From Aridibaculum aurantiacum (GTDB lineage: Bacteria > Bacteroidota > Bacteroidia > Chitinophagales > Chitinophagaceae), in contig NZ_JAFEWC010000002.1 of assembly GCF_017355875.1 (NCBI RefSeq), positions 248,001 through 312,000 of the forward strand: a DNA stretch of 64,000 bases, in the 5' to 3' direction. The notes beneath the pieces were generated by a model. That model worked only from the letters and a program-made list of their open reading frames with translations. It made no database searches and was not told the origin of the DNA. Both the position numbers and the translations under genes were made by a program. Shown piece after piece: positions 2,952 to 60,688 of the stretch; within the stretch, counting starts at the first letter, position 1, and every line of letters starts with the position of its first letter.

Positions 2952-5363
2952 ATGCTTAGCGGTAAACAAACAACAGGAAATAAAACAGCTTGCTATCACT
3001 GCGGTGAAGATTGTGGAAGTAATGTGATAGTGGCAGCAGAAAACAGCTTTTGCTGCGAAGGTTGTAAGATGGTGTACGAGATACTGAACCGCAGCGGCCT
3101 GTGCGATTATTATTCAATTAATCAAAACCCAGGTACCAGCCAGCGGGAGCCTCTACGAAAAGATAAGTTTGCTTTTTTAGATGATGTAAAGATCAGGCAA
3201 TCGCTCATAAGCTACCACGACACAGCTCAGACGCATATAACTTTTTACCTGCCGCAAATGCACTGTAGCAGCTGCCTGTGGCTGCTGGAAAATTTGCACA
3301 GGCTTAATGAGCATGTACTTTCCTCAAAAGTGAATTTTACCAGGAAAGAAGCGGATGTAATATTCGATCATACAAAAGTATCGCTGCGGCAGGTGGCAGA
3401 ATTACTCGCTGCTATAGGTTATGAACCTTACATAAGTTTAAGTGATGTAAAACAGGCCAAACCACGTTTCAATAAATCGAAGATCTATAAACTTGGTGTT
3501 GCAGGATTTTGTTTTGCAAACATTATGTTGCTCAGCTTTCCTGAATATTTAGGTATAGATGCCAAGGAGCACAACCTGGTGGGACTGTTCCGCTACCTGA
3601 ACTTGCTTCTCAGTCTTCCTGTATTTTTTTATAGTTCATCTGAGTTTTACAGCAGTGCATGGAAGAGCCTGCGCCATGGATTTCTAAACATTGATGCTCC
3701 TATTGTACTTGCTGTGGTAGTAACCTTTGGACGTAGTGTGTTTGAAGTATTGACAGACACTGGCGGCGGTTATTTTGATAGCATGAGCGGCATTGTTTTC
3801 TTCATGCTGGTGGGGCGTGTATTGCAGGATAAAACTTACGAGCAGCTAAGCTTTGAGCGTGATTACACTTCTTATTTCCCTGTTGCCGTTACCAAGGTTG
3901 GTAGGGGCGAAGAGACACCCGTTGCCCTTCCTGATATAAAGCTGGATGATACACTGCTGATACATAACCAGGAGCTGGTGCCTGCAGATGGTATTCTTAC
4001 ACGCGGCTCTGCTTTGATTGATTATAGTTTTGTGACTGGCGAAAGTGTGCCTGTACAAAAGGAGATGGGGGAGATCATTTATGCAGGCGGAAAACAGATT
4101 GGAAGCAACATTGAACTGCTGGTGATAAAGGAAGTAGCGCAGAGTTATCTTACCAGGTTGTGGAACAGGGAAGAACTGAAGAAGGATAAGCGTGATGAAG
4201 AAAGATCATTTGTTCATTTGCTTGCTCGTTACTTCACCTGGGTTGTTCTGGCTATTGCCACCACCAGTGCGCTTTATTGGTATTTCAACAATGACTATGC
4301 AAAGATCTGGAACAGCGTTACTGCTGTATTGATTATTGCTTGCCCTTGCGCGTTATTGCTAAGCAACACATTTACCAATGGAAACGTACTTCGGTTGCTT
4401 GGTAGAAATAAATTGTACCTGCGCAATGCACAAAAGATAGAAGATATAGCTGCTGTAGATCATATCGTTTTTGATAAAACAGGGACATTAACTACAGGGC
4501 AGTACCAGCATATTGAATATTCAGGTGAAGCTCTTACACCTTCGCAAAAAGCTAAGGTTGCAATGTTGGCTTCTCAATCTACGCACCCTATGAGCAAGGC
4601 TGTAGCGGCTTATTTAGGTGATAAGAAAAGAGGTACCATAGCAGGTTTTAAAGAAGTACCCGGTAAAGGAATAGAAGGCATAGTAGAAGGCGATCTTATT
4701 ACAATAGGGTCAAAACAATTTGTGTTTGGAAGCAAGGATCATGAAGAAGAGACCTGCGTATATGTGGCAGTGGAGGAACAGGTGCTTGGTAAGTTCAGGT
4801 TCAAAAATCATTATCGCGATAATGTACCATCACTCATCAGGCGCTTGAAGCGAAAGTATAAGAACAATCTTTCTATCCTGAGTGGTGACAATGCTGGTGA
4901 GAAGCACTACCTGCAAAAACTACTGGGTAATGGCGCTGAAATAATGTTTCATCAAAAGCCTGAAGACAAACTGGAAACTATAAAGCGCCTGCAGCAGCAA
5001 GGTAAGAAAGTGATGATGGTGGGTGACGGCTTGAACGATGCCGGAGCACTCAAACAAGCAGATGTAGGCATTGCTGTTACCGAAAACTCTAACACATTCA
5101 CACCCGCCAGTGATGGAATCATAGAAGCCAGCAAGTTGCCTGTATTGTATAAGTTTATCAAAATGTGTAAGATCAACAAGCGTGTGGTTATGGCAAGCTT
5201 TGTTGTTTCTATCATGTATAATATTGTGGGTATCTATTATTCTGTGCAGGGAGATCTTTCGCCTATGATAGCGGCTATCCTAATGCCCAGCAGCAGCCTG
5301 AGTATCATGCTCATTACCTTTGGTGCCAGCAACATTGCTGCCTGGCAAATGAAGATGAAGTGA
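2952..5363 (+). CDS. Copper-translocating P-type ATPase, CcoI/FixI type
   Basis: 803 residues. It starts with the cysteine-rich domain typical of FixI/CcoI (C14, C17, C21, then CCEGC near 34-38), followed by an HMA domain with CSSC at 105-108. The P1B-ATPase core shows TGES (362-365), the CPC transport motif (464-466), the phosphorylation site DKTGT (508-512), HP (545-546) and GDGLND (691-696). CcoI proteins export copper for assembly of cbb3 cytochrome oxidase. In most Bacteroidota the gene is followed by ccoS and ccoN/O/P, but here it is followed by 420 non-coding bases and an unrelated sigma factor, so the oxidase genes must lie elsewhere if this assignment is right. Confidence 0.93.
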   Translation: MLSGKQTTGNKTACYHCGEDCGSNVIVAAENSFCCEGCKMVYEILNRSGLCDYYSINQNPGTSQREPLRKDKFAFLDDVKIRQSLISYHDTAQTHITFYLPQMHCSSCLWLLENLHRLNEHVLSSKVNFTRKEADVIFDHTKVSLRQVAELLAAIGYEPYISLSDVKQAKPRFNKSKIYKLGVAGFCFANIMLLSFPEYLGIDAKEHNLVGLFRYLNLLLSLPVFFYSSSEFYSSAWKSLRHGFLNIDAPIVLAVVVTFGRSVFEVLTDTGGGYFDSMSGIVFFMLVGRVLQDKTYEQLSFERDYTSYFPVAVTKVGRGEETPVALPDIKLDDTLLIHNQELVPADGILTRGSALIDYSFVTGESVPVQKEMGEIIYAGGKQIGSNIELLVIKEVAQSYLTRLWNREELKKDKRDEERSFVHLLARYFTWVVLAIATTSALYWYFNNDYAKIWNSVTAVLIIACPCALLLSNTFTNGNVLRLLGRNKLYLRNAQKIEDIAAVDHIVFDKTGTLTTGQYQHIEYSGEALTPSQKAKVAMLASQSTHPMSKAVAAYLGDKKRGTIAGFKEVPGKGIEGIVEGDLITIGSKQFVFGSKDHEEETCVYVAVEEQVLGKFRFKNHYRDNVPSLIRRLKRKYKNNLSILSGDNAGEKHYLQKLLGNGAEIMFHQKPEDKLETIKRLQQQGKKVMMVGDGLNDAGALKQADVGIAVTENSNTFTPASDGIIEASKLPVLYKFIKMCKINKRVVMASFVVSIMYNIVGIYYSVQGDLSPMIAAILMPSSSLSIMLITFGASNIAAWQMKMK

Positions 5364-5783
5364 TGAATAAAGAAAAGTATGTTTGATTCAGTATGATATG
5401 CTCCAGGTTGTATTGAGCAGAAACGGTGCGTATGTTATCATTTAGCAGAAATCAACATATTCGAGTTCTACTTGATTTTATTTTGAGGTAAATAGATCAC
5501 TTTTATGCAGAAGAATAAACTCCTTCTATTTAAACCGATCTGCTATGCCTTGCAAAAATGCTATTCATAAAGGAGAACCGCTTCTGCGTTCGCATTTCCT
5601 ATTGCTTTACCGAATCGTGTATCGGATATGGCGGACACTTGATATCTCTGGCAGGAGAATATATTGACAATATCGGGTGAAGCTAATTCATATGGTATTA
5701 AAATATTTTCATAAGCTTCAGACTTAGATCATTTGTTCCTTCTTTTGCGCATGAATTAACACCTCCAGTGTTTTAAAAAATTT
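5364..5783. other. Intergenic region before the polysaccharide locus
   Basis: 420 nt with no convincing reading frame and no ccoS-like sequence. It must hold the promoter of the sigma factor gene, but no clear TTG / TAnnTTTG pair (the Bacteroidota primary sigma consensus) could be fixed. Confidence 0.4.
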
Positions 5784-6380
5784 TTGCCGACGCCAGACAA
5801 CGATATTGCCATTGCCAATTGGAATGCCATGCTTAGTGGTAGCCAAGAGGCTTTTACCAAACTCATGCAGGAGTTTTATGCAGAGCTATTCCGGTATGGC
5901 TATAGTCTTCACCAGGATGATGACGCGGTGAAGGATTGCATTCAAAACCTCTTTCTTAACCTTTGGCGTACCAAAGGCAATCTTCGGCCAATTACCAATG
6001 TAAAGTTTTACCTTCTCAAGTCACTAAGGCGCGAATTACATAAAGAAGTGCTTCGTGATTCTTCCCAGGCCGAAAAACAAGAGCAGTTCCTGCGTGTACA
6101 GGACGATCAATCCTATAGCAGGGAAGACCTGATGATAAGTAAAGAGGAACAGGCTCAACTGGTGAGTAGGGTTACAGAAGGCATACTTACTTTATCTGCA
6201 AGACAGCAAGAGATCATTTACCTGCGCTTTTACATGGATATGAAACCTGAGGAAATAGCAGAAATAATCTCGTTGCAGCGGCAGTCGGTTTATAACCTGC
6301 TGTCAGATGCGCTAAAGCGTTTAAAAGAAAATATTCAGCTCCCGGTGAGTGGCGAAAAGCCGGCAGAAAAAAATTTTTAA
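5784..6380 (+). CDS. ECF-type RNA polymerase sigma factor (FecI-like)
   Basis: 198 residues. Region 2 spans about residues 20-90 (AFTKLMQEFYAELFRYGYSL, then DAVKDCIQNLFLNLW). Region 4 spans about 130-185 (LSARQQEIIYLRFYMDMKPE, with helix-turn-helix IAEIISLQRQSVYNLLSDAL). The start is a TTG at 5784: an in-frame stop lies at 5757 and the next ATG (5826) would remove conserved N-terminal residues. The gene is followed after 66 nt by the FecR gene and then an STN-bearing SusC, the usual order of a trans-envelope signalling unit controlling a glycan-uptake operon. Confidence 0.92.
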   Translation: MPTPDNDIAIANWNAMLSGSQEAFTKLMQEFYAELFRYGYSLHQDDDAVKDCIQNLFLNLWRTKGNLRPITNVKFYLLKSLRRELHKEVLRDSSQAEKQEQFLRVQDDQSYSREDLMISKEEQAQLVSRVTEGILTLSARQQEIIYLRFYMDMKPEEIAEIISLQRQSVYNLLSDALKRLKENIQLPVSGEKPAEKNF

Positions 6381-6446
6381 AAAAAGTTTACAAAAGTCCA
6401 GTAGATTTTTTTCTCCTGCTGCTTTATAGTATTAACTGATTGTTAT

Positions 6447-7550
6447 ATGAATTCGCCCACAGCTCCCTTACTCACCATCGAGGACTTTCTCACCAACGCG
6501 TACTTCCGCCAGTGGGTGTTCAATCCAGACGAGGAATCCATTGGTTACTGGACAAAATGGATGAAAGAACATCCAACACAGCAACCAAATTTGAATTATT
6601 CATTCAGTATCTTACACAGCCTCTACATGCATAACAAAAATATTTCGGATGATGAGGTAAACAACGAGATAGCTAAGATCCTGGCTAAACTAAAGGATGA
6701 AGAGGCTAAAGAAGCAACTCCGGCTACCGCAAAAGTATTCACCATTAAGCCTGCAGTACGATGGGCCGTTGCCGCCGCTGTTATCTTATTAGTTGCCTCT
6801 ATATATTTCTTAAATCAGCCAGCTACTCCTTCAGCATCATACCAGGCATTCATTCAAAAAATGCAAGATGCCTCCACTGAGTATACCAATACCTCAGATA
6901 CTACAAAAACTTTCACTCTTCCTGATGGCAGCTCGCTTACATTGTATCGCAACAGTAAAGCCACTTATGCATTTGCCGATCAAAAGCGGCAGGTTTATAT
7001 GGAAGGAAAGGCATTCTTCGATGTAAAGAAAAATCCGGCACAGCCATTTGTTGTTTATACAGATAAAATAGTCACCAAGGTATTGGGTACTTCATTTTTT
7101 GTAGATGCATACCCTGCTACCAAAGTTCTTTCAGTGGTAGTCCGTTCAGGAAAAGTATCAGTATACAATAAAGAAGATTTTTCTGAAACTGCTGCACGTC
7201 CTCGGCATTTAGGAGGCTTATTGCTTACACCTAACCAACAGGTGGTTTTAGATAAGAATGAAAATCTTTTAGTGAAACAGCTGGTTGAAAATCCTGTATT
7301 TGTTAAGCCGGCTGCAAGTACAAAATTCCATTTTGAAGAAACGCCTGTGGTGCATGTGCTGCAGGCACTGATGGAAGAATATGGTATACAAATATTGTAC
7401 GATGAAGAAGCAATGTCAACCTGCACACTTACTGCCATGTTTGATAACGAAAGCTTCTTTGACAAGCTCAATATCATGACAAAAGCTATTGGTTCTACAT
7501 ATGTAGTTATAGATGGAAACGTGGTAATAAACAGCAACGGATGTAAGTAG
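6447..7550 (+). CDS. FecR-family anti-sigma factor
   Basis: 367 residues, single-pass inner-membrane protein. The N-terminal about 100 residues are cytoplasmic and would bind the sigma factor (conserved W-rich segment WTKWMKEHP). A membrane helix spans about 105-122 (WAVAAAVILLVASIYFL). The periplasmic FecR domain carries FTLPDGSSLTLYRNSKATY near 155, and the C-terminal DUF4974 portion (about 295-365) resembles an STN fold and would contact the STN domain of the downstream SusC. It pairs with the sigma factor at 5784. Confidence 0.94.
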   Translation: MNSPTAPLLTIEDFLTNAYFRQWVFNPDEESIGYWTKWMKEHPTQQPNLNYSFSILHSLYMHNKNISDDEVNNEIAKILAKLKDEEAKEATPATAKVFTIKPAVRWAVAAAVILLVASIYFLNQPATPSASYQAFIQKMQDASTEYTNTSDTTKTFTLPDGSSLTLYRNSKATYAFADQKRQVYMEGKAFFDVKKNPAQPFVVYTDKIVTKVLGTSFFVDAYPATKVLSVVVRSGKVSVYNKEDFSETAARPRHLGGLLLTPNQQVVLDKNENLLVKQLVENPVFVKPAASTKFHFEETPVVHVLQALMEEYGIQILYDEEAMSTCTLTAMFDNESFFDKLNIMTKAIGSTYVVIDGNVVINSNGCK

Positions 7551-56803: not shown

Positions 56804-59800
56804 ATGTCTACACAAGAGCAAAAAGTAAGAATAGTAACAGCGGCTTCGCTGTTTGACGGTCATGACGCGGCGATCAATATCATGCGCCGCATATTGCAAA
56901 GCAAAGGCGCCGAGATCATTCACCTTGGTCACAACCGGAGTGTGGCCGAAATAGTGGAATGTGCTATCGAAGAAGATGCGCACGGTATAGCCATCACCAG
57001 CTACCAGGGCGGTCATGTTGAGTTCTTTAAATACATGAAAGACCTGCTGGAAGAGAATGGCTGTGGTCATATAAAGATCTTTGGCGGCGGCGGCGGAACG
57101 ATACTGCCAAGCGAGATAAAAGAGCTGCATGATTACGGCGTTACCCGCATTTATAGCCCCGACGATGGACGTGCAATGGGATTGGAAGGAATGATACAGG
57201 ATGTGATTGATCAGTGTAGCCCCCTCCTTGCCTCCCCCGGTGGGGGAGGAGACTGGCAGCAGGTGGATTACTTCCGGGCTGCTTCAGCTTGGAACGGGAA
57301 ACTGCCGTTAAACGAGAAGAAGGATGTAAGGCGCATTGGCAGAGCTATCACTTTAGCTGAAATGGGACAAAGCTTTGCGGAGGTGATAGCTCCAATCAAC
57401 GGTAATAACAAGAACAGTGAGCATACACAGGCGACCGGCCAATCTTCCATCACTGTGGGTCAGTTCATGGCTGATCCGATGCTTTATGGAAAGTTGAAGG
57501 AGTTTGCTCTTGAACATAGAAAGCATGCAACACAAGCTGAAGAACTTTTATGGGATAAACTAAGAGCGAAGAAAGAAGGTTACAAGTTCAGGCGGCAACA
57601 CATCATAGGCGCTTTTATTGCCGATTTTGTCTGCTTATCTCGCGGAGTTGTGATAGAGGTAGACGGAAATTATCATCAACTTCCTGAAATGCAGCTAAGT
57701 GATGCAGAACGTACGGCTGAATTAAATAAGCTAGGCTTCGATGTGCTGCGTTTTACCAACGAAGAGGTAATTTATCAACTTGACGAGGTGGTTGAAAGAA
57801 TCCACAAGCACCTGGCAGACCTGCCGGAGAAAAACGTTGACGTAGATACTCATGGTGCTAGCCACTCCTCCCCCGCTGGGGGAGGCCGGGAGGGGGCCAT
57901 TCTCGGCATCACAGGTACCGGTGGTGCGGGCAAGTCTTCAGTAACAGATGAGATTGTTAGGCGTTTTTTGAATACGTATACTGATAAAACAATTGCTGTT
58001 ATTTCAGTAGATCCATCTAAAAAGAAAACAGGTGGAGCACTGCTGGGCGATCGTATTCGTATGAACAGCATCCACAATGGACGCGCTTACATGCGAAGCC
58101 TGGCAACTCGTGAAAGTGATAAAGCCTTAAGTAAATACGTGCAGGAAGCGCTGGACATTTGCCGCAGTGCAGGCTTTGACCTGGTGATACTGGAAAGTGC
58201 GGGTGTGGGTCAAAGTGATGCATCCATCCTTGACTACTGCGACGTGAGCATGTATGTAATGACGCCGGAATACGGTGCGCCATCGCAGCTGGAGAAGATC
58301 AACATGCTGGATTATGCGGATGTAGTTTGTATCAATAAGTTTGATAAGGCCGGTGCACTGGATGCGCTGCATGATGTGCGGAAGCAGTTTAAGCGTAACC
58401 ACCAATTATGGACTGCCAAAGATGAAGAATTGCCAGTAGTGGGTACCATAGCTGCACAGTTCAATGATGCGGGCATCAACGAATTATTTGAAAAACTGAT
58501 GCTGGCGATAAGTACAAAAACTGGTAAGCAATTTGGTGTGCTGGAAGATCATGGACATACTGCTGATACTTCTACAAAATCGCAGATCATACCACCAAAG
58601 CGTGTACGTTACCTGAGCGAAGTGGCTCAAACCAACCGCGAGTACGACCAGTGGGTGAACGAGCAGGCAACCATTGCTTCTAAACTTTACAAGATAAATG
58701 GTGCCGCAGAGGCGCTGCAGGAAACAGGTGCTTCGTCAGCCGATCTTGATAATGTTCGTAACCATTTTGAAGAAAAGCTGCACACTGAGTGCAGGAAGTT
58801 GATAGAGGCATGGCCGCAGGTGGTAGCTAAATATGCTGCTGATTTTTTTGAATATAAAGTAAGAGACAAGATCATTAAGCAGCCACTGACGTCGGTGTCG
58901 CTGAGTGGTACACGTATACCAAAAGTGGTGCTGCCAAAATATAAAGACTGGGGCGACATTCTTCGCTGGCAGCTGCAGGAAAATGTGCCGGGTGAATTCC
59001 CGTACACTGCAGGTGTGTTTGAACTGAAACGCCAGGGTGAAGATCCTACCAGGATGTTTGCCGGAGAAGGTGGACCTGAGCGTACGAACAAGCGCTTTCA
59101 CTATGTTTCATTGGGGCAGCCGGCAAAGCGATTGTCAACAGCCTTTGACAGCGTAACGCTATACGGAGAAGATCCTGCAGTGCGACCAGATATCTACGGA
59201 AAAGTAGGAAACAGCGGTGTGAGCATAGCAACAGTAGACGATGCCAAAAAATTGTATAGCGGTTTCGACCTGTGCAGCCCAACCACATCGGTAAGTATGA
59301 CCATCAATGGTCCGGCGCCTATGCTGCTGGCGTTTTTCATGAATGCTGCTATTGATCAGCTATGCGAAAAATATATTGAGGAGAATAATCTTTGGGACAA
59401 GGTAAACGAGGTGTTTCAACAGAAATATGAGCATGCTCCACGTCCTTCCTATTACAATCCCTCTTCGCCGGAAAGACTGCCGGAAGGTAACAATGGTTTA
59501 GGGCTAAAGCTGCTTGGACTAAGTGGTGATGAAGTGCTGCCAGCTGATGTTTACCAGAAATTAAAAGCAGAAGCGCTGAGCCAGGTACGTGGTACGGTGC
59601 AGGCGGATATTTTAAAGGAAGACCAGGCGCAGAATACCTGCATCTTCTCTACGGAATTTGCGCTGAAGCTAATGGGTGATGTGCAGCAATATTTTATTGA
59701 CAAAAAGGTGCGCAACTTCTACAGCGTTTCTATTTCAGGATATCATATTGCAGAAGCAGGAGCTAATCCTATTACCCAGCTTGCTTTCACTCTTGCCAAT

Positions 59801-60688
59801 GGTTTTACTTATGTAGAGTACTACCTGAGCCGCGGCATGAACATAGATGATTTTGCGCCAAACCTTTCGTTCTTCTTTAGCAATGGCATGGACCCTGAGT
59901 ACAGCGTGATTGGCCGTGTGGCGCGTCGCATTTGGGCCAAGGCAATGAAGTACAAGTACAAAGGCAACGACAGGAGCCAGAAGTTGAAGTATCATATTCA
60001 AACATCGGGTAGAAGCCTGCATGCGCAGGAGATCGATTTCAACGACATACGTACCACGCTGCAGGCGCTGTATGCCATCTACGACAACTGTAACAGTCTT
60101 CACACAAATGCGTACGACGAAGCCATTACCACACCAACAGAAGAAAGTGTGCGCAGGGCAATGGCCATCCAATTGATCATTAACCGCGAGTTGGGTACAG
60201 CAAAAAATGAAAATCCAAACCAGGGAAGCTTTTTGATAGAAGAACTGACAGACCTGGTAGAGGAAGCTGTGCTGGCAGAATTTGACCGACTAACAGAACG
60301 TGGCGGAGTGCTGGGTGCAATGGAAAGAATGTACCAGCGCAATAAGATTCAGGAAGAAAGCCTGTTTTACGAGCACCAGAAGCATACAGGTGAGTTGCCG
60401 CTGATTGGGGTGAATACTTTCCTGAACAAAAAAGGTAGCCCGACCATTTTACCTTCAGAAGTTATAAGAAGTACAACCGAAGAAAAAGAGCAACAGATAC
60501 ATAACCTACAGGGTTTCCAAAAGCGGAACGAAGCCAAGAGCCAGGAGGCGCTAAAGCGCCTGCAACAGGTAGCCATCAACAATGGAAACCTTTTTGAAGA
60601 ACTGATGGATACGGTAAAGTACTGCAGCCTTGGGCAGATAACACATGCACTTTACCAGGTAGGCGGGCAGTACAGGAGAAACATGTAA
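56804..60688 (+). CDS. icmF: Fused isobutyryl-CoA mutase (IcmF) with internal DUF559 domain
   Basis: 1294 residues, about 170-200 longer than IcmF proteins as I recall them. N-terminal B12-binding domain (1-138) with DGH (18-20). Linker with [13 protein letters not shown] (about 177-188). Inserted DUF559 domain (about 222-340). MeaI-type GTPase chaperone with P-loop GTGGAGKSS (371-379) and [19 protein letters not shown]-terminal mutase barrel with [10 protein letters not shown] and [16 protein letters not shown]. Phe752 in RMFAGEG aligns with the Phe of isobutyryl-CoA mutases where methylmalonyl-CoA mutase has Tyr (RQYAGF), so isobutyryl/butyryl-CoA isomerisation is favoured. Adenosylcobalamin-dependent. 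The frame stays open across the insertion and all IcmF motifs inspected are intact. Confidence 0.93.
57219..57251 (+). repeat. GC-rich palindromic repeat, left copy, inside icmF
   Basis: 33 bp containing the palindrome CCTCCCCC-GGT-GGGGGAGG preceded by GCCCCCTCCTTG. It is read in frame as [10 protein letters not shown] right after the B12-binding domain (residues about 140-149). Its reverse complement matches 57865-57897 at 29 of 33 positions. No other copy was noticed in the window. It resembles the abundant REP-like palindromes of Bacteroidota genomes. Confidence 0.85.
57467..57897 (+). mobile_element. Candidate REP-associated DUF559 endonuclease module inserted in icmF
   Basis: An internal ATG (57467, residue 222) begins [19 protein letters not shown], which looks like the natural start of stand-alone DUF559 proteins. 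The domain keeps its nuclease-like pattern: [40 protein letters not shown] and [13 protein letters not shown]. It has no IcmF counterpart. It ends in the right palindromic repeat, after which the GTPase domain starts at once. DUF559 is related to Vsr-type (PD-(D/E)XK) nucleases. The boundaries are inferred: no target-site duplication could be fixed. Confidence 0.6.
57865..57897 (-). repeat. GC-rich palindromic repeat, right copy, inside icmF (inverted)
   Basis: 33 bp with the palindrome CCTCCCCC-GCT-GGGGGAGG followed by CCGGGAGGGGGC, the inverted counterpart of 57219-57251 (29/33 identical). It is read in frame as [12 protein letters not shown], directly before the [15 protein letters not shown]-loop segment of the IcmF GTPase domain. 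Confidence 0.85.

Follow-up and report, generated by a model that had tools for sequence, protein, structure and literature searches.

How does a nuclease domain come to lie, in frame, inside a B12-dependent mutase? The question is raised by icmF of Aridibaculum aurantiacum, which lies in a window (the whole stretch of DNA analysed) of 64,000 nucleotides. An earlier note made from these letters alone described a DUF559 domain between the linker and GTPase of IcmF, bracketed by inverted palindromes, and took it to be a mobile module associated with REP repeats. We find that the gene, 1,294 codons with zero stops, is unbroken as the note had claimed, and that its product clears the NCBIfam equivalog cut-off for IcmF despite the insert (1,759 versus 1,500 bits). 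The domain at residues 231–337 belongs to DUF559 (PF04480; E 1.6e-30, 105.6 bits versus a curated cut-off of 20.6) and sits where the note had placed it. The inverted partner that the note had seen 613 bp upstream is likewise there: two arms of 33 nt, 88% complementary and spaced by 613 nt, each contain a 19-bp palindrome (Table 1).

Table 1. Features of the filled icmF locus, in positions of the window
Feature	Position	Strand	Basis or remark
icmF, fused isobutyryl-CoA mutase/GTPase, host of the insert	56804..60688	+	1,294 aa; ORF, Pfam, NCBIfam
B12-binding domain, PF02310	56828..57142	+	Pfam
Left end: outer tag GCCCCCTCCTTG and 19-bp palindrome 57231–57249	57219..57251		codes for 12 residues
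IcmF linker segment, W-type, between the two palindromes	57252..57372	+	borders approximate
N-terminal lead-in of the module, ADPxxYG type	57446..57493	+	common to many modules
DUF559 nuclease domain, PD-(D/E)XK / EDxHD-like	57494..57814	+	conserved residues intact
Right end: 19-bp palindrome 57867–57885 and outer tag	57865..57897		the left end, inverted
MeaB-type GTPase domain of IcmF	57896..58501	+	restarts right after the right end; Pfam
IcmF mutase domain, best Pfam stretch	59570..60664	+	Pfam

The bracketing held in part. Inverted ends are present on both sides, but the left palindrome and the nuclease are not adjacent; the linker segment between them is of the W-type (WNGKLPL...), an ordinary IcmF type that is present in many uninterrupted IcmFs and in 20 of the 43 IcmF linkers examined, genes with a DUF559 module ('filled' genes) counted in. 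Only about 57373–57897 is therefore foreign to IcmF as such. The mobile reading also survives with a correction. The segment is insertion-like, its palindromes are REP-like and the frame is kept, but the palindrome is not abundant: at up to two mismatches the genome holds three sites, the two icmF ends and one other, and we reject the idea of an abundant REP in A. aurantiacum. The internal ATG at 57467 does not recur in the five other filled IcmFs examined, and a role for it is not supported. To judge from the sequence, the DUF559 segment looks like an insertion that has been mobile over evolutionary time.

The module consists of little beyond a catalytic domain. Its predicted structure covers 129 residues with a mean pLDDT of 86, and the Pfam scan of the A. 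aurantiacum IcmF gave no additional domain over cut-off inside the insert. A profile search returned as its top two matches PDB 3hrl, a DUF559-type protein (4.8e-31), and 3r3p (2.1e-7), the catalytic domain of I-Bth0305I; Foldseek on the model matched both as well, 3r3p with E 6.4e-4 and probability 1.00; for Vsr of Escherichia coli (1vsr) it gave E 0.21 and a TM score of 0.41. By profile and by predicted fold, the module is thus related to an EDxHD homing endonuclease. One paper assigns a Thermosynechococcus DUF559 gene to the same EDxHD homing family. R35, Q36, D45, E56, D58 and H62 (module numbering) are all intact in 119 of the 126 non-solo copies. The embedded domain is under purifying selection: median pN/pS is 0.24 in 58 same-site pairs, most of them near saturation and not independent, versus 0.15 in the host stretch, and the least diverged pair (L190 and L191) has dN 0.04 versus dS 0.49.

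The module is not unique to icmF or to this genome. A. aurantiacum has two DUF559 matches, and the second, also between inverted palindromes, lies in frame inside a 1,124-aa ORF read as leucyl-tRNA synthetase (LeuRS), itself a single match in the genome to a 56-aa LeuRS probe. DUF559 is present in 76 of 147 genomes of the same family. From the matches listed we took 60 further family regions with a listed open frame of more than 250 aa, a choice that skews them towards embedded copies; at least seven other matches with such a frame (G020, G036, G062, G065, G085, G089:C8 and G142) were left out. A named set, the best 80 of 564 relatives, was selected independently of frame length. Here 60 of 81 domains are embedded, that is, have an open frame of more than 90 aa on either side. 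Pooling gave 145 domains, 143 of them distinct; of these, 113 are embedded, 17 are solo, and 10 and 3 lie close to the N and C ends, respectively. By title, 79 of the 80 named records are Bacteroidota, and as the best 80 of 564 relatives they say little on other phyla. The remaining record, a contig of a Candidatus Nitrotoga metagenome-assembled genome (L203), holds a MetH with a Flavobacteriia-like DUF559 and is probably contamination.

The hosts are encoded by unrelated, conserved genes. We checked 24 representative host proteins, the A. aurantiacum IcmF included, against NCBIfam, and 16 families scored over cut-off among the hosts sampled: adenine deaminase, chorismate synthase (AroC), IspG, LeuRS, CinA, IleRS, MetRS, MazG, RecG, WecB, HsdR, a DEXH helicase, MetH, UvrA, RdgB and IcmF. 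Three proteins (L050, L231, L234) received no name over cut-off, and two (L095, L215) are cut frames that fell below it. A single LeuRS can hold two modules (L076, L077), as can a single MetH (L189). That many unrelated genes carry the same kind of module in frame suggests a selfish element that is ordinarily translated as part of its host protein; selfish element and real fusion, offered by the earlier note as alternatives, may thus both hold. At or near the C end of the helicase-like proteins L074 and L075, a DUF559-like domain without paired flanking palindromes is something different, an ordinary fusion.

Palindromic ends recur at many of these modules. Palindromes rich in G+C flank 76 of the 113 embedded modules on the left, 68 on the right and 52 on both sides, versus 7.2%, 3.3% and 0.8% at 1,900 fake positions in 95 module-hosting ORFs, and with 0.8% at such positions the pair at icmF is beyond chance. 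The palindrome scan covered 220 nt, so that the left icmF palindrome falls outside it and is scored absent; overall, a palindrome went undetected on at least one side in 61 of the 113 embedded copies and on both in 21. Family loci have palindromes on both sides in 30 of 55 cases and on neither in 3, the named set in 22 and 18 of 58. Solo DUF559 genes, too, have them on both sides in 12 of 17 cases. The flanks are inverted with respect to each other: across 129 embedded or solo modules the inverted score exceeds the direct score in 104, is lower in 19 and ties in 6, and mean scores are 32.7 for inverted, 23.6 for direct and 18.8 for swapped partners. By eye, a typical end consists of a tag on the outer side (GCCTCACCCC or GCCCCCTCTAA, for example), a few bases and then a stem-loop. 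The more alike two nucleases are, the more alike are their ends, even where the host sites differ (rho 0.23, 0 of 500 permutations, 84 of 143 modules), a correlation to which shared genome ancestry could contribute.

The ends also occur without a nuclease. The IcmF at L258 has both palindromes and no DUF559, which makes it a precursor or a relic, and that at L116 has the right palindrome alone. In A. aurantiacum itself, two G+C palindromes about 230 bp apart and inverted by eye (L007, 5006–5250; C1 near 747011) lie between genes that we read as mraY and murD and enclose no DUF559; this pair is possibly a nuclease-less form and may extend the start of murD. No convincing palindrome-only LeuRS was seen at sites A or B, the only palindromes called there, those of L152 and L156, falling in conserved coding sequence, and lone G+C palindromes lie elsewhere in the LeuRS genes of G086 (L267) and G091 (L272). 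Genome-wide, tags average 3.8 in the 76 genomes with DUF559 versus 1.3 in the 71 without (p 1e-4), a weak enrichment because the reversed control pattern is more frequent there as well (1.9 versus 0.93). Among four plasmid-borne solo DUF559s of other phyla, that of Pseudanabaena lies between long inverted ends, nearly identical and of the GCCCCCTAAATCCCCC..GGGGGACTT type (L275, 1270–1900; score 106), that of Deinococcus has a 21-nt pair, and those of Synechocystis and Azospirillum gave no convincing inverted ends. On the strength of the Pseudanabaena ends, the association of palindromes with DUF559 may reach cyanobacteria.

At IcmF, occupancy is patchy. The earlier note had named a DUF559 carried throughout the family without palindromes as the sign of an old fixed domain; instead, 132 of the 147 genomes match a B12-domain probe and six filled IcmFs are known from them, a count that leaves out several frames cut by contig ends, and all six have palindromes, on both sides in four and on the left only in two. 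An empty congener exists for three of the five genera with a filled IcmF (L101, L123, L253). In a host tree of 44 IcmFs built without the linker (of 45 intended rows, L104 missing; the L262 label assigned by eye), the filled genes require five changes, and the AU test rejects their grouping as one clade (p 5e-45). The sister of the A. aurantiacum gene is an empty one with the same linker type (L122, support 97/89), and the filled L067 and L102 are sisters to the empty congener L253 (100/97) and the empty L120 (100/95), respectively. The nucleases of the filled IcmFs nevertheless form one group in the DUF559 tree (SH-aLRT 94), and the host and nuclease trees are discordant.

Beyond IcmF, the same tree (143 domains, 109 columns, SH-aLRT support, with many forks open and host labels taken from motifs read by eye) joins nucleases of different hosts. 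Those of AroC group with LeuRS sites A and B, and those of CinA with MetRS, MetH and adenine deaminase (SH-aLRT 94 each). Without a shuffled control of host labels, we count 25 changes among 11 host states versus a minimum of 10. Many host sites keep their own DUF559 type, and with this much clustering by site, some of the pattern may go back to old vertical descent with losses.

The linkers bear on what may have moved. Between the filled L067 and its congener L253 the flanks are 91% and 94% identical and the linker 41%; between L102 and L120 the flanks are 92% and 87% and the linker 44%. The filled L067, L102 and L068 have the W-type linker, and the nearest empty genes L253, L120 and L254 another type, a mismatch that fits transfer of a palindrome-to-palindrome unit together with a piece of host linker. 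We also considered whether the linkers of filled IcmFs are most alike among themselves (43 of 45 IcmFs compared, L104 and L107 missing), and rejected this, as it held only with palindrome-coded residues counted; with these excluded, three of four filled IcmFs (L067, L098, L102) find their nearest linker in an empty gene. Over the final 33 nt ahead of the palindrome, identity to the sister is 67–91% at the DNA level, similar to the remaining flank. Both the IcmF linker and the LeuRS A site vary in length among empty genes.

Taken together, these patterns make it probable that the module is one copy from a large family of selfish, homing-like nuclease elements whose ends are palindromic and which reside, translated and unspliced, in tolerant linkers and loops of conserved genes. 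The element is laid out as a tag and stem-loop, the DUF559 nuclease, and an inverted stem-loop and tag, open in frame throughout. The nuclease would be made within the host polypeptide and would cut cassette-less alleles at the palindrome or the conserved target, or close to it. Repair would then copy the cassette in, with the palindromes as its likely borders, sometimes together with a piece of host sequence, and occasional cuts elsewhere would carry it into new genes. As there is no splicing, an insertion would persist only where it lands in frame in a tolerant loop, and residence in an indispensable gene would supply expression and make sloppy deletion harmful.

Other explanations can be set against this one. 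The ends might be moved by other machinery, for example Y1/RAYT transposases as for REPINs, with DUF559 as cargo or a later hitch-hiker. The ends are REP-like, tags and stem-loops in an inverted pair; Y1_Tnp is found in 9 of 12 selected genomes, with five matches, two of them weak, in A. aurantiacum; and palindromes lack a DUF559 at L258, at L116 and in the mraY/murD pair. Yet no Y1_Tnp match was found in the module-carrying genomes G141 (one contig, with an IcmF module), G052 and G012 (72% complete), end type follows nuclease type across host sites, and solo DUF559 genes lie between palindromes as well; we consider a separate mover unlikely, though with some real chance of being correct. An old insertion inherited vertically, lost many times and no longer mobile would agree with the single group of IcmF DUF559s, with the several sites that hold one DUF559 type over many genera, and with the lack of a special linker tie among filled IcmFs once palindrome-coded residues are set aside. 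It is improbable in view of the scatter of filled IcmFs over the host tree, the W-type linkers of L067, L102 and L068 beside sisters of another type, and the groups of mixed hosts in the DUF559 tree.

The fusion might instead be domesticated, with DUF559 adding a useful function to the enzyme and kept for the benefit of the host. Purifying selection on embedded copies speaks for this, as does the presence of modules at one and the same position across many genera, MetH in Flavobacteriia being an example. The hosts, however, have no pathway in common, empty sisters accompany filled IcmFs, and one LeuRS or one MetH can hold two copies, and we give this account only a slim chance. Removal of the module from mRNA or protein, as by an intron or intein, would leave the host protein normal and would suit residence in LeuRS, an indispensable gene with a single match. 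We reject it as extremely improbable: the Pfam scan of the A. aurantiacum IcmF shows no intein (Hint) domain, the borders are palindrome-coded and vary in frame, with no constant Cys/Ser start or His-Asn-Cys/Ser/Thr end by eye, and the preserved frame would be needless for an intron.

Homing nucleases in essential genes are best known from self-removing introns and inteins, the latter lying in frame in conserved genes and carrying a nuclease of the homing type. The module shares both of these traits with inteins and differs in having neither a splicing domain by Pfam nor constant splice residues by eye. Here, homing-type nucleases seem to manage without self-removal, in frame and in loops that accept an extra folded domain.

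The module shares with the EDxHD homing endonucleases (I-Bth0305I, 3r3p) a related catalytic domain and, at one site of a conserved gene, an occupancy that is patchy and discordant with the tree. I-Bth0305I is treated in PMC3943268 among endonucleases of mobile group I introns, whereas the present analysis turned up neither intron nor intein; the nuclease remains part of the host protein, and palindromes form the ends. The same source describes EDxHD enzymes as having a separate DNA-binding region tethered to the catalytic domain; the module, by its 129-residue model, roughly equals the catalytic domain. Stand-alone DUF559/Vsr-like proteins such as 3hrl and Caulobacter VsrA belong to the same domain family but are separate genes, VsrA being required for the SOS response in cells lacking the methyltransferase ScmA, according to PMC12907096. 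Rickettsia palindromic elements, as described in PMC10969869, place palindromic DNA in frame in many unrelated coding genes, just as is seen here; unlike the present module, a folded nuclease with hosts across Bacteroidota, they are about 150 bp long and carry a conserved peptide. REPINs, which PMC3116915 presents as non-autonomous inverted palindrome pairs that are defined from extragenic repeats and connected with Y1 transposases, have the same inverted pair of tagged palindromes. They differ in that a DUF559 lies between the ends here, 113 of 143 units are intragenic (partly from the choice of loci), and neither high copy number nor extragenic location applies, the three sites in A. aurantiacum including two inside icmF.

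A full-text search of open-licence PMC papers found none that ties DUF559 to palindromes or to in-frame insertion, and prior work elsewhere is possible. Homing endonucleases, REPINs and Rickettsia palindromic elements are each known; their combination in an unspliced homing-like nuclease with palindromic ends in Bacteroidota core enzymes was not found in that literature. If the reading is right, it would explain a class of oddly long Bacteroidota core enzymes, give the DUF559 family a function and a testable substrate, provide a source for G+C-rich coding palindromes, and yield a natural catalogue of sites in essential enzymes that tolerate a foreign domain. Going further, a minimal DUF559 between paired tagged palindromes could constitute a general mobile class that homes without splicing and becomes a permanent domain of Bacteroidota core enzymes, and maybe mobilises G+C-rich palindromes in other phyla, given the two plasmid-borne solo cases; from sequence comparison we hold this wider claim tentatively, as quite possible but short of an even chance.

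Two observations lie to the side of these results. At L250, a single frame (4563–7550) comprises RdgB with a DUF559 insert and the type IX secretion protein PorZ, either a fusion or a quirk of assembly. The nuclease also has relatives in phage sequences: phage records contain two at E 1e-5, and 15 IMG/VR contigs with DUF559 relatives (L158–L172), several of them 6–7 kb long, are perhaps small phages that carry nucleases.
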